DNA from: a virus
Length of the DNA stretch: 38,598 bases
Strand: one strand, 5' to 3'
IMG/VR virus record: IMGVR_UViG_3300037344_000012
Span: 1 to 38,598 of that record
Both the position numbers and the translations under genes were made by a program. Position 1 is the stretch's first letter. Each line of letters starts with the position of its first letter. The notes under the pieces were generated by a model that did no database searches, was not told the DNA's origin, and worked only from the letters and a program-made list of their open reading frames with translations. Below, piece after piece: positions 12,263-35,909 of the stretch.

Positions 12263-13277
12263 TCACGGACCAATCCCGTACCAGTCATTACCGGGACGGA
12301 TACTTTCAAGCAATTCTTTTGGAGTAATCTTATTTGGAGGGTCAATTAAACCATCGTCTTTTGCTCGTTGTAGATACCTATTATATGTCGCCCTTGACAT
12401 ACCAGACTTTCGCATTGCTTTGAGAGTCTTATGAATGGTGCCTTCTTTTAGCGCATCTGCGTAGATTTGCCGAAGAGCCCATTTAGCGGGAACCGCTTCA
12501 CCAAGGTTCGAGAAAAACGCATCATGGATAGTTCCAGTGTCTACGTTATTTTTCTTCCCCCAAAGGTGGAATTGACGGACAATCACAGCATCGTTACTGT
12601 GGTTTCCGTTAACACCAAGCCCAATCGCGGCGTCTTGAATGGACTGCGGGGAGGCTAGTTTGCCATCCGCACTTGGTGCTTCGTATAGGTTAAAGACTTT
12701 CTTACCTGTAACAGGGTCTGTAAAGTCTATTCTTACTTGTTCCTTAACACGATATCTTTGCATCATGGTTTTACCATCAAAAGTAACCCAAGGAATGTCA
12801 ACTGATCCAGACTCTTTAACGAAGTCTTTAGCAATGTCTTTCCAGAAGTTAATAAACTTACCAGTAACGGGAACTTCTTTTTCTAACTGACGTGACATAA
12901 TCCCTGAAATCTTCTCGAACAACCGAGTACCTACAAGGTCTCCTGTTTCATCGGTAAGCTTCATTAAGAATGTGTGCATGTCTTCAGAGTTCTTCATACC
13001 CTCCCTAAACTCTGACCTTGCGGTCTCATAGAGAGAGTCTGTGATAGATGTTCCTTCCTTGGAAGCAGCAACTACTTGTTTCTTTAAGTCGCGCAGTTCA
13101 TCAATGCGAGACCAATTCTTTCTGTCCATTTCAAAGCTAATCTTAGCGTCAATGGCAGCTTTAAACTTATCAACTTCTTTTGTGGAGATAGCGATCTTAC
13201 CCTTCTTGGCAAGAACCTTCGCGAACTGGTTGGCCACGTTAGCAGCCTTAGTCGCGTCCCCGGCTCCATAAAATGCT
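12263..13277 (-). CDS. MuF-RNA polymerase fusion, exon 2 (polymerase C-terminal half)
   Basis: Exon 2 encodes residues 1144-1480 of the spliced protein and has no start of its own; the splice completes a split Val codon at 1143. It begins AFYGAGDATK, finishing the fingers motif whose Tyr1146 aligns with T7 RNA polymerase Tyr639. Further T7-like blocks follow in order: IPWVTFDGKTMMQRY (compare HWVTPDGFPVWQEY in T7), GVNGNHSNDAVIV (compare NFVHSQDGSHL) and TGTIHDAFFSN, where His1394-Asp1395 match T7 His811-Asp812, the second catalytic Asp. All catalytic residues are kept. A GTG inside the exon could only start a catalytically useless fragment. Confidence 0.88.
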
Positions 13278-13304
13278 CGTTTTATTTTGTGTTCAACAAG
13301 GTAG

Positions 13305-13838
13305 TCAATCCTTGCCCGATAAATAAAAGGCTTCCCCTCGTTTTACCATACGTCCAACTGTTCTGTGGCTAATGCCCAGTTGTTCAGCGGCCTTACGAGA
13401 AGACTTGTATACAACACCCTCAATGCTTACTTGCTTTGACAGGTGGTGGTTATCATTCAATCGTTTAGAAAGGTTAGCACCAAAACCTTCAGGTTTAGGG
13501 CGTCCCTTGTGAAGCTTAGAAATGGCTTCTTTTTGCTCACTACTTAACTTTACACCTTGTCTAACCAAGCTTTGTGCTTTGTTTATAGATTTAGGTTTTA
13601 TGTTATGTCTACCAGACATCATCGTAAAGGCAAAAGCCATAGATTTGTTTCTATGTATTTTCCACAATAAGTGATGTGCGGTATAGTGAGCCTTGAATGT
13701 TAAGTATACAAGGTTGTCTTCATCATCTGTGCCGCCCATAGATTTAGGAAGGATGTGGTGGCGTTCTGAGTAGTACTCAGGTTTGCTTTTCACACCGTGT
13801 TTCCTTATGAGTTCATCATAATGATTTTTGTAGTTCAT
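13305..13838 (-). CDS. Intron-encoded HNH homing endonuclease
   Basis: A 177-aa protein with an HNH nuclease core at about residues 26-56 (SERHHILPKSMGG, NLVYLTFKAHYTAHHLLW), a NUMOD-type DNA-binding segment (KLHKGRPKPEG, about 108-118) and a C-terminal IENR1/NUMOD1-like helix-turn-helix (YKSSRKAAEQLGISHRTVGR). Such enzymes cut the intron-free allele so that repair copies the intron. It lies downstream of the ribozyme S element, leaving the catalytic core intact, and its stop is 27 bases from the 3' splice site. An AAAGGAAAAT ribosome site precedes it. Confidence 0.92.
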   Translation of the reverse strand: MNYKNHYDELIRKHGVKSKPEYYSERHHILPKSMGGTDDEDNLVYLTFKAHYTAHHLLWKIHRNKSMAFAFTMMSGRHNIKPKSINKAQSLVRQGVKLSSEQKEAISKLHKGRPKPEGFGANLSKRLNDNHHLSKQVSIEGVVYKSSRKAAEQLGISHRTVGRMVKRGEAFYLSGKD

Positions 13839-13884
13839 TTATTTTCCTTTTATTTATCCGCTATATGTCGCCATATAGACCAGA

Positions 13885-14025
13885 CTATATCTTAAACTCT
13901 TTCAGCTTCCCCATTAAAACAGCCCATTCAGGTTTGTCGTAATGTCGTTTCCACCACTTAAGGGGTTTAGCGGTTGCACCTCTTGGTGCTTCATAGTAGA
14001 GTTTCTCTGCTTTTCCATCTGACAT
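13885..14025 (-). CDS. 46-aa frame inside the ribozyme core
   Basis: A 46-codon frame starting MSDGKAEKLYYEAPRGATAK and ending in KLKEFKI, with a GAAAGGAGTACATCTAA ribosome site. It sits in the segment between the R and S core elements (P8 side) and its stop codon TAG is part of the S element. The peptide is basic with WW and W residues (PLKWWKRHYDKPEWAV), like a small nucleic-acid binding protein. It may be a remnant or a maturase-like aid, or simply P8 sequence that happens to be open. No family recognised. Confidence 0.4.
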   Translation of the reverse strand: MSDGKAEKLYYEAPRGATAKPLKWWKRHYDKPEWAVLMGKLKEFKI

Positions 14026-14141
14026 TTAGATGTACTCCTTTCGGATAGTCGTTGAACGTTCCCCTTTCGGGGCTTCGCTGCTGATTGTCTCATTTCTGAG
14101 ATGTTCCAGCAATTAACAGAGTTTATACATGGCAACATTTC

Positions 14142-17100
14142 ACCATGTTTTGGTTTTTGGCAGCCTTCATAAGGTCTGTCCAGTCTAGGTCGAGTTCTGC
14201 AAGTTCAGGTATAGCTAAAAACTCAGGGTCGGCTACAGTCCGTTTAGCAATCTCATCGTAGAGTCTTTGCTTTTTAGAGGTCTGTAGCACGTTAGACAGT
14301 TCACCCGCAGCACGGTCTCCTGTTGATAAAGAAATAATCTGAGCTCCAGAGGAACTAGCATCATTCTCAATCATCATCTTGGTTTTGTACTGTGAAATAA
14401 GCTTAAGGTCTTCAGGTGTCCACTGAGTTTTATCAATGACCATACGACCACCCATGTGCTTATAAATACGTGTGTACTCAAGGGCAAGACGAGCAAGTTT
14501 ACCAATCTCTTTATCCTCAGTAGCAGCTGCCAGTGGGTTAGATAGGAATTCCTTAATGCGTCGGTCAGGCTGTGTTTTACTTAACATGGCTTCACCCATA
14601 GCCAAGAGGTTTTCTTCTTGGTCTTTGAAAGCCTTTAAGCGACCCTTCAAGGTAAGTGTGTCAAGTGGACTACCCACCAGTGCCCCGATTTGTACCTGAA
14701 GTTCCTCAATAGCATCTGAGTTTATTCGCACAGCCCTAGAGGTGTTCAAGAACGGACGAACCGCTTCCCCTTTGGTGGGGGTTAGTAGTCCACGGTGATA
14801 AACACGACCACGAAAGTCAATAGAAGCATCAACAGAAAAAGCTTGGTTACGCTGGCGATAGAATTTGGCAGTAGCTAAAACACCACGACCGTCATTACCA
14901 CGAGACATAAAGAGCTTCTTCCACTCGTTAACTGAGTCCCACTTCTTAGCTTCACCGCGTTTGTCATTAAAATAAATAACACGTTCAGCAAAGTCAAAGA
15001 AGTCGTTGTCAACCTCGTACTTAACAGAAGTTGCGTGATTTAACATACCAGATATATCGCGGTCAATCTGGTTGGCGTCATAGTCAGCATAGACCCTTTC
15101 GGAAACTACTGGCATCCTAGTCTTGCGACCACGAGCGTCATAGTATTCTTTACTGCCTGCACGAGCATAGACTTTATCACGGGGGTGATAGATGCCGAAG
15201 CGACGTGCGGTACGTGCCTTCTCTGCTGAAATCTGTAGCTGGCGCATTGGCCCGTTTACGATTGTCAGCTGGCGAGTAACGCTTACACCACGGAGAGCTT
15301 TGTCACTAACTGGTCGACCTGTGGCCAAATCAATAGGAGAGGAAGTTCCAATGTCACGGATAGTAGTTGTACGGATCATCCCCTGTTTTTCAAGAGAAGC
15401 AATAATACGACTACCATCTTTGTGGAAATCTTTTAAAGACTTTGAGCGAAGTGGGTTAAGACTACCCAGTTCATCATCAAACATCTTGCCAATCTTGATT
15501 GCAAGCATGTCATAGTCTGCGCCGTCAGCAGTTGCAATTGACTCCATTGCTTTGGCAGTTGCCTTGATAGTTTTGTCTTTAATATTCTCAATAGCCTTCC
15601 TGCGGTCTCGACTGTGTAGAAACTCTAAATCCAGAAGTTCTCGTGTCTTACCTCGTAAGTTTGATATCTGTGTAGTAATCCAGCTATCTGAGGGTGGAGT
15701 CTTTTCAAAGAACTTTTCAAGACGCTTCTTGGCCTTGTATCCGGGTATCTTTTCTAAAAGCTTCTTTACAATTTCCTTACGACTAGGGTACCTACTAATA
15801 ATAGGTTGTGTGTAAGCTGCAATAGGGCCTCTGCCGTTGTAGTAAGCCTTTTTAGCTAGCTTTGAGCCATACTTACCGCGCCACGTTTCAATGTAGCGGT
15901 TGTCTGCAATTTGACCGTCTATCAGCTCTGAGATAGTGTATTTCTTGTTAAAGATAAAGACTTCAGGGTCGTTGGCTAGTTTTGCAGTTAAAGACCCAAA
16001 TAACTTACCACGATCTGAACTACGGTTAAACATAAGGGTACCTAAGTCTTGTACTGCGTTAAGAGTGAACTTACGCATTACAGAGGTAGGTTTACCCCAA
16101 GCTTCACCTGTAGCGTTATACCTTGTAAAGGTTTGACGCAACACATCAGTGATTACAGATTGTTGGTTTATAGAGATGTCTTTCCCCAAGTCACCTACAA
16201 AGTCAGTTATAAACTTCTTCTGTGCGGGCTCTAGTGCATCACTTTCAATAACACGGGCCAGTCGCTCTTGTAGGACTTCTGGTTCTTGTGTTTGTAGGTG
16301 ACGACCAGCACCGCTCGTATAGTCTGCCCCATCGGCATTCATAACAGAACCTTCACGGCTGTTCTTGAAAGACCTTCGGCTACCTTGCTTTTGTGACAAA
16401 GAGTTACCTTTGAAGTCAGTAAGAGCTAGTGCTTGAGCGTTTTCAGCTGCATCGTTCTTAAAGTGTTCACGAAGAGCAACACGATTAGCCTTAGAAGACA
16501 TGAGTTCATCTGGCGTAGAGAAGCCAAGGTTTACATTACTCTCGTTCTGCGCAGTGGGCCGTGTTACAGTTTTATTTGCACGACGCATTAGACCAGCGAT
16601 AGATAGGGCCTTGCCTACTGGTGAAACAAACTCCGAGGCCAGTAGCTTACCTTGTTGGAAAAGCTTAGCCTGACGTTCCCCCCCTAAGTTCTTAATCTGA
16701 ACTGCGGTAGACTGGCGACGAAGCCAATCTGAGTAGGTCTTAATTTTTGAAGGTTCCCCTGTCAACTCTGTGGGGTTCATATTCTTAAGGTTTCTTGGTT
16801 TAATGTTCTTAGACTCAAGGGCCTCAAGATCAGCCTTATCCTTTACAACTGGCACCATTGTTGAACGACAGTTGAAGTGCAAAGGGGGCTGATAGCGAGT
16901 ATCCCCCACCTTGTAAACTTGACCATTGTGGAAAGAGCAAATAGAGCTAGTGCGACCGTCCAAGATAGCAGTAAACATAAAGCCATTCAAGACTTCCTTG
17001 TTTGCTTCCATAAGATTGCCAAGAGCTTGTGTCTGCACACTTGTCATAGAGGTGCGGGTCAATGTCCTAGCTTGGTGTTCAGTTATCTTAGTTGTCTTCA

Positions 17101-17569
17101 ATACATCTTTTATGATATCATTTTGGGTTAGCCCATTAGCTAAACCTGCTTTGACTTTAGTCTGAATTCTTACAAGCTCACCAGAAGCAATGTTGGACAA
17201 GTTATCTTTAACAGTTCTAACGCCCTTGATGCGCGGCCCTGTTATTTCTGATAGCAATTCTTTGGTTGTTGGCTTCTGTGTTCTGTAGAACTTCTTAATC
17301 TCGGAGTCAAGGTTGTTCTTATGAAAGGCAGTCTCAGCTGTAAACAACTCAGACAAGCTACTAGAAACAGATTTGTTCATTTCGTTACCGAAACGAGTAA
17401 CCTCTGGCTTTACGCTAGACCTAATATCCTTCTTCAGGATCTCTGCTAGGTTCTTTCGGTGTTGTCTAATAATATTTCGTTGTGCGAGTTGCTGACCGTT
17501 TTCATAGAGACGAAGGTCTCCACTGTGGTCAATAATCCTATCGAAAATCTTTTCATTTATTCCAGTCAT
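14142..17569 (-). CDS. MuF-type head protein fused to T7-like RNA polymerase, exon 1
   Basis: Exon 1 encodes residues 1-1143 (the last codon is split) of a 1480-aa protein. Residues about 150-243 form a MuF domain with HQARTLTRTSMTSVQTQ and DGRTSSICSFHNGQVY, then PPLHFNCRST, as in minor head proteins such as SPP1 gp7. Residues about 250-900 are a long linker and N-terminal polymerase region without motifs I can name. Residues 918-924 are DFRGRVY (T7: DWRGRVY); Asp1070 in NDASSSGAQ matches T7 Asp537, the first catalytic Asp; Lys1138 matches T7 Lys631. The gene follows portal and precedes scaffold, the standard MuF position. GAGGTAAAACGA precedes the ATG. Unspliced RNA would end after five intron-coded residues. 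Confidence 0.92.
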
Positions 17570-17574
17570 TCGTT

Positions 17575-18060
17575 TTACCTCGTTGGCGCGTACTCACCGT
17601 AGTATTTTACTTCGGCCTTTCTGCGTGCTTGGGTCGCGCCCTCAAGTGTGTCGAACATACCTAGCTGCTTTCGCTTGCCATTTATGTTTATTCGAGCTGT
17701 CCACTTTTGTTCACGACTACGGAATCCTACTCCCGTGACACCCGACTTATTGTTCGAAGGTGTCTTTCTATTCATATTATTTTGAGACGGAGTTACTAAC
17801 CTCAGATTCTTAATGAGGTTGTTACATTTGTTTCCGTCTATATGGTCTATAATAAAACCTTCAGGAATGCTGCCGTTGTGCAGTTCCCATATGATTCTGT
17901 GTTCGGGGCTCTTTCTTCCTAAAAAATGAACTCTACGATAACCCCCACCTGTTGCACAGAAGTGGCCTACACGGTATCCTGCCTTAACTAGGTGGTTGTC
18001 TCTGTCATATTTAGCGAGAAGTTTTCCCTCTTCGTAAATGAAGTGTTTATTGTAATCCAT
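17575..18060 (-). CDS. Free-standing HNH endonuclease with AP2-like domain
   Basis: A 161-aa protein with an HNH_3 core (SPEHRIIWELHNG, then GFIIDHIDGNKCNNLIKNLR, about residues 50-88) and a C-terminal AP2/ERF-like DNA-binding domain (SGVTGVGFRSREQKWTARI, then LGMFDTLEGATQAR). This is a mobile homing nuclease that inserts between phage genes. It sits between portal and the MuF gene, where the two are normally adjacent. Flanking hairpins and a tRNA-like segment look like insertion-associated DNA. No ribozyme core is visible around it, so it is not intron-borne. Confidence 0.92.
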   Translation of the reverse strand: MDYNKHFIYEEGKLLAKYDRDNHLVKAGYRVGHFCATGGGYRRVHFLGRKSPEHRIIWELHNGSIPEGFIIDHIDGNKCNNLIKNLRLVTPSQNNMNRKTPSNNKSGVTGVGFRSREQKWTARININGKRKQLGMFDTLEGATQARRKAEVKYYGEYAPTR

Positions 18061-35579: not shown

Positions 35580-35909
35580 CGTTTATGTTCAGTAAAGTTC
35601 GTTAGGCTTTACCCGAAGTGAGTTATGTTGTTTTTATTATTTTGAATTGGCCTGTTAAGGGGCATAACTCACTTCTGCTCATAGTTTCCTATGAGACCAG
35701 ACTATATCTTACACAACTCTTATGCTGTGTCCTCGCGCTTCCACCCACTTGGGTGTACTTCCTAGTAGCATAGCTACCGTAACGGAATAGTCGTTGCACG
35801 TTCAACCTAGGGTAATAACTAGGAAGCTTCGCTCAGGGTTGCCTTGCACCTTAGAGGTGTTTAGGGTTTCTCTGAATTCACGAGATTTAGAGTCGGCTAA
35901 TATAAAATC
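35580..35909 (-). ncRNA. Group I self-splicing intron without ORF, in terL
   Basis: A 330-nt intron. P1 pairs GTCGGT (35915-35910) with GCCGAC (35897-35892), placing the U-G pair at the 5' splice site. The Q region reads CCTGAGCGAAGC (around 35825), R is GTGCAACGACTA (35799-35788) and S is AAGATATAGTCTGG (35710-35697), giving P7 GACTA/TAGTC. The intron ends in G at 35580. Splicing keeps the frame and restores DFNVG-IMASC. P10 is weak. R and S are nearly identical to those of the intron at 13278-14141, so the two are related. No reading frame lies inside. Confidence 0.92.

Follow-up and report, generated by a model that had tools for sequence, protein, structure and literature searches.

What is the 864-nt segment that breaks a phage RNA polymerase gene inside its most conserved motif, and how could such a gene still yield one protein? 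We addressed this question in a 38,598-nt stretch of DNA from a marine-type phage, analysed whole and referred to here as the window. Our answer is that the segment is very probably a mobile, self-splicing group I intron, which interrupts motif B (the fingers motif) of a gene that fuses a MuF head protein to a single-subunit RNA polymerase (MuF-ssRNAP). The features read directly from the DNA are the fold signature of the RNA, a junction exact to the base, an enzyme with undamaged motifs, relatives in which the site is either empty or occupied, and a patchy distribution; from these we infer splicing in cells, DNA cleavage and homing.

An intron in motif B and its splice sites

The intron boundaries were set by the match to Rfam model RF00028 together with the exon junction of intron-less relatives. 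The features are as follows, from exon 1 to exon 2.

14142..17569, minus strand: exon 1, with a MuF-like domain (residues ~1-366) and the RNAP N-terminal and motif A part (from the ORF and the splice reconstruction)
14142..14147, minus strand: exon 1 strand of P1, CATGGT (from the sequence and pair counts)
14141..13278, minus strand: group I intron, 864 nt, from G at 14141 to the terminal (omega) G at 13278
14134..14140, minus strand: intron strand of P10, AAATGTT (2 of 7 pairs changed on both sides across relatives)
14128..14133, minus strand: guide-sequence strand of P1, GCCATG (from pair counts)
13861..14127, minus strand: catalytic core, P3-P9 (from the Rfam alignment)
14115-14121 with 14005-14012, minus strand: P3, CTCTGTT with AAGCAGAG (from the Rfam alignment and coordinates)
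14046-14050 with 13883-13887, minus strand: P7, GACTA with TAGTC (from the Rfam alignment and coordinates)
13305..13838, minus strand: HNH endonuclease ORF, 177 aa, after P9 (PF01844, HTH_50, phrog_655)
13271..13277, minus strand: exon 2 strand of P10, AGCATTT (from pair counts and coordinates)
12263..13277, minus strand: exon 2, the remainder of the RNAP (AFYG of motif B, the HSND motif and motif C, IHDAFF), with the stop codon at 12263

Using cmscan, RF00028 matched 14151..13861 over the whole model with 91.8 bits (E=1.8e-22). This is far above the gathering score of 50, and the covariance-model search that an earlier note on this DNA had proposed thus bore out its group I intron call. The core also folded far better than shuffled sequences (z=-5.47). 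In introns of subgroup IA, the 5' strand of P7 is followed by additional hairpins (P7.1/P7.2). The predicted fold contains the hairpins TCCGAAAGGA and CATCT..AGATG, which are possible counterparts as judged with the general group I model.

The 5' splice junction reads ...AAAACATGGT/GAAATGTTGCCATG... on the minus strand (a slash marks a splice junction throughout), with a U.G pair at the splice site within P1. P10 consists of seven pairs, one of them U.G. Joining the exons gives ...KAAKNQNMVAFYGAGDATK... within a 1480-aa open frame, which is the uninterrupted frame of intron-less relatives. All of the P1, P10, U.G and terminal G features that the earlier note had read were found at the positions listed above, and its claim that the splice sites are exact to the base held, in that intron-bearing and intron-less relatives place them at the same base.

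Counted on a gap-free alignment of seven distinct intron versions, P1 and P10 were 95.6% paired, and pairing fell to 31-44% when the partners were slid by 1-3 nt. The U.G of P1 was invariant in the 7 distinct sequences. Two P10 pairs were changed on both sides, with A-U for U-A in one relative (L166) and G-C for A-U in the group of another (L188). The covariation is mild, since 60 of 500 shuffles reached the observed score, and this control is weak because few columns vary. A MAFFT alignment of the core was rejected for covariation counts because it misaligned P6/P7 of the window against the other intron lineage. The RF00028 E-value, the fold z-score and the loss of pairing in slid partners together exclude chance.

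The unspliced polymerase frame meets a stop 19 nt into the intron. An in-frame stop also falls 10-19 nt into the intron in 10 of the 11 other motif-B introns checked, the exception being L223. Such early stops would keep ribosomes off the intron core.

These data bear on whether the gene could instead be split without splicing, with the polymerase in two pieces and the HNH gene standing alone. Splitting by HNH insertion has been proposed as the origin of the N4-type two-subunit RNAPs (PMC5418858), and the record of EBPR siphovirus 1 lists three genes at the corresponding locus. A mere split, however, would not explain why the group I core is complete and pairs with the splice sites, and the break falls inside motif B. 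In addition, translation of exon 2 in its frame could first start at GTG 13237, so the second piece would lack AFYG. We consider this route very unlikely and favor an intron whose self-splicing would restore the 1480-aa polymerase protein.

The intron was also said to carry an HNH enzyme, and its ORF indeed matched PF01844 with 23.4 bits, over the cut-off, and the phrog_655 family 'homing endonuclease' with E=7.8e-38. HTH_50 was likewise over its cut-off and NUMOD1 was below; the C-terminal part is of the helix-turn-helix or NUMOD1-like, DNA-binding type. Both the frame and the motifs are intact. Self-splicing with HNH-driven homing is the standard mechanism for such an element and fits all of the data. 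In this mechanism, the RNA core would excise itself, with the 5' site set by P1 and the internal guide sequence and the 3' exon aligned by P10, and exon ligation would restore KNQNMV-AFYG. The HNH enzyme would most likely cut or nick intron-less copies of the conserved stretch in co-infecting phages, and repair of the cut copy would bring the intron in.

A second ORF of 46 aa, MSDGKAEKLYYEAPRGATAKPLKWWKRHYDKPEWAVLMGKLKEFKI, lies at 13886-14025 on the minus strand, across P7/P3'/P8 of the intron core. The last ~20 residues of this ORF recur in a relative, L055, with synonymous codon changes, but do not form one open frame there. We found no PHROG family for this ORF and no phage match by tblastn. 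It is possibly a remnant of an older protein.

The interrupted gene

The joined gene begins with a MuF part (PF04233, E=1.1e-13; phrog_241 head morphogenesis, E=8e-52). For the polymerase, exon 1 alone matched the phrog_414 RNA polymerase family (E=5e-16), and Pfam RNA_pol scored 23.4, just above its cut-off of 22, in a match that spans the exon junction. The T7-type catalytic residues that we sought, namely DxxGR, the motif A Asp, the motif B Lys and Tyr and the motif C HD, were all found, in the stretches DFRGRVY, ENDASSSG, KxxNMxxFYG and IHDAFF. KxxxMxxxYG at the intron site has the spacing of T7 motif B.

For L004, a relative without the intron, an AlphaFold model of the last 1000 residues, made from a 22-row alignment, had a mean pLDDT of 78.8 and a pTM of 0.77. 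Using Foldseek, its best PDB match was T7 RNAP (E=7.2e-19), and all of the best matches were T7 or mitochondrial RNAPs. We conclude that the C-terminal part of the gene is, as judged from motifs and predicted structure, a T7-type single-subunit RNA polymerase with predicted activity. Pfam, PHROG and Foldseek thus agree with the earlier placing of the site in the polymerase fingers motif, where KxxxMxxxYG is interrupted. The same note had spoken of an ssRNAP gene; the polymerase stands, but not as a stand-alone gene, because it forms the C-terminal end of a far longer fusion with a MuF head protein.

Relatives such as L004 and L145, and also phages DSS3_PM1 and DSS3_VP1, encode the fusion in a single uninterrupted ORF, which in the two phages is annotated "minor head protein". 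In DSS3_PM1 the gene sits between the portal and coat protein genes. This setting and the MuF fusion itself suggest that the polymerase is likely carried in the virion. Modules of the N4-like virion RNAP have been reported solely in N4-like phages, and a MuF-RNAP fusion is not mentioned in the part of that report consulted (PMC5512222). IMG/VR contains hundreds of relatives of this fusion of MuF to a T7-type RNAP within a head-gene module, which reveals a large and largely overlooked phage family in which a head protein bears a T7-type RNA polymerase.

Directly upstream of the MuF-RNAP gene lies a free-standing HNH_3/AP2 endonuclease gene (17575-18060, minus strand). L055, L004 and DSS3_PM1 have tRNA genes at this place, and no tRNA was found in the window.

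Empty and filled sites among relatives

Relatives were collected by IMG/VR scans that gave 55, the best 80 of at least 580, and the best 80 of 220. The motif-B site was uninterrupted and in frame in 161 of 175 distinct readable contigs or records, and it held an intron in the other 14, window included. Some of these carriers were found by pattern searches for the intron itself, so the unbiased intron share is a few percent; the sample is not random. The intron-less relatives that the earlier note proposed to look for are therefore abundant; they do not translate the segment as protein but are without it. A pattern scan with CATGGTRAAATGTTGCC was discarded, as 10 of its 11 contigs were chance matches with neither intron nor polymerase, which a longer pattern avoided. 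Inserts of ~700 nt in frame near residue 344 (L177, L184, L191 and others) were considered as introns and rejected, L177 being open when read fully. One polymerase subgroup (L177, L184, L191, L197) has a ~230-aa protein insertion shortly after motif B, in-frame and open in L177.

The intron position is identical in 13 carriers: the window, EBPR siphovirus 1 (L059), L066, L166, L188, L192, L194, L195, L218, L219, L223, L225 and L226. All 12 of the other introns directly follow CATGGT, and a terminal G was present in 11 of the 11 with a 3' end on the contig (that of L225 lies off its stretch). The polymerases of these 12 are only about 40% identical to that of the window. L185/L189 have an intron that lies upstream of the site by about 12 nt; its apparent last base is not G, which makes the 3' boundary uncertain, and it was excluded from the counts. 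That the insert could be an assembly chimera is suggested by the window being a single metagenomic contig, and we regard it as extremely improbable, since different samples have yielded 12 other contigs or records with the same arrangement, among them a GenBank phage record. This record, EBPR siphovirus 1 (JF412302), shares with the window the MuF-ssRNAP gene, the group I intron, the HNH enzyme and the identical site, in the region annotated as gp47/gp48/gp49; it differs in its polymerase, about 40% identical, and in its annotation. It labels neither an intron nor a polymerase, and our reading corrects the annotation of this locus.

A homologous intron (73% in the core) lies 3 nt upstream in L055 and has another guide sequence (GTGTTC against GAACAT). 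In both core and HNH trees the window grouped with L055, apart from the EBPR-type lineage at the same site as the window. Either one intron lineage shifted its position by 3 nt or this conserved stretch was invaded on two occasions, and insertion at the same site may have happened repeatedly. The identical guide across introns is no proof of common descent, because the guide is dictated by the conserved exon. The HNH of the window is only 34-43% identical to those of the same-site EBPR-lineage introns, so a recent transfer would be hypothetical.

On a tree of 95 polymerases, occupancy of motif B required 11 changes, with at least 6 of them forced by starred (strongly supported) branches. The tree does not separate gain from loss. 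The earlier suggestion that the intron could spread among phages thus gains indirect support from the patchy distribution, with homing as the putative route. We also considered that the intron still splices and is no longer mobile, persisting by vertical descent with occasional loss. Consistent with this, in several pairs the intron cores have diverged by broadly as much as the polymerases, the intron is present in only a few percent of relatives, and the polymerase tree fits loss as well as gain. However, the HNH frame and motifs are intact, occupancy requires 11 changes on the tree, the window and L055 are each nested singly among intron-less relatives, and several sites of the same gene were hit. 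We therefore judge immobility unlikely, though a serious contender, and favor a mobile intron.

Conserved target stretches and parallels in other phages

Group I introns were also found at HD/AFF of motif C (L035) and at VNG/NHSND (L174, L188, L209), with two introns in L188. When the non-overlapping 24-nt DNA stretches of the gene were ranked by conservation over about 40 effective sequences, QNMVAFYGA was first, IHDAFFTNL second and VNGNHSNDA third. The three intron-bearing motifs (B, C and HSxD) are exactly the top three stretches, and the description of the site as among the most conserved DNA holds, at rank 1, within the MuF-ssRNAP gene family. A covariance model of the intron family detected introns solely inside the MuF-ssRNAP gene in 170 neighbourhoods (about 1.3 Mb); it was built from the MAFFT core alignment including the window, so the score it gives the window does not count as independent evidence. 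The enzymes at motifs B and C are of the window type. At VNG/NHSND the HNH is of another type, resembling the HNH_3/AP2 protein encoded at 17575-18060 of the window, so at least the third-motif intron looks like a separate arrival. Taken together, group I introns appear to have invaded this gene repeatedly, at its three most conserved stretches. The locus offers a clean, quantitative case of homing introns settling where DNA is most constrained.

The element itself is of a familiar kind, and its target pattern is unusually clear. The SPO1/phiNIT1-type DNA polymerase introns (I-HmuI, I-BasI) likewise combine a group I core, an HNH enzyme and a conserved polymerase gene, and the window core is ~73-81% identical over ~90-130 nt to intron or intron-like segments in Bacillus SPO1-like and T4-like phages. 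They differ from the window in site and guide sequence, and the host gene of the window is a head-protein-fused ssRNAP. The PhiPA3 gp210 intron is likewise a group I element that encodes an HNH enzyme and sits in an RNA polymerase gene of a phage. PhiPA3 is a jumbo phage, however, and the gene belongs to its multi-subunit virion RNAP, which has no relation to the T7 type of the window. The gp210 enzyme was experimentally shown to nick the gene of a rival phage and block it (PMC11620839). By analogy with gp210, MuF-ssRNAP might be a dedicated battleground, in which a head-borne polymerase, probably co-ejected with the DNA, is targeted at its top three motifs by separate introns whose HNH enzymes act against the polymerase genes of co-infecting phages. 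We offer this idea tentatively, as a possibility on the doubtful side.

In Pseudomonas phage ZC08, an insertion in RNAP subunit 2 was described solely as a homing endonuclease (PMC5418858, KU356691). With 88.9 bits, it proved to be a group I intron, located in motif C (4704-4969 of L228, which is KU356691 45000-70774), and this annotation is corrected as well. Exon 1, which has the SVHD of motif C at its end, matched RNA polymerase (PHROG, E=3.6e-118). By reading of the sequence, the junction is GAC T/GT, one base from the L035 position, and the sister phage ZC03 has SVHDCYATHPNN uninterrupted. Like the window, ZC08 has a single-subunit-family RNAP gene broken at a catalytic motif by a group I intron; unlike it, the gene is an N4-type RNAP2, the motif is C rather than B, and the HNH-type enzyme is different. 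Our search of the open-access literature turned up no account of a T7-type RNAP gene that bears a group I intron.

The window holds a second group I intron, in terL (35909..35580, minus strand; 330 nt, 71.3 bits), in which no ORF was seen. Its removal would join DFNVG/IMAS at the nuclease motif. The terL of DSS3_VP1 is split at the same place by an insert on the scale of 742 nt with its own ORF, and is annotated as three genes.
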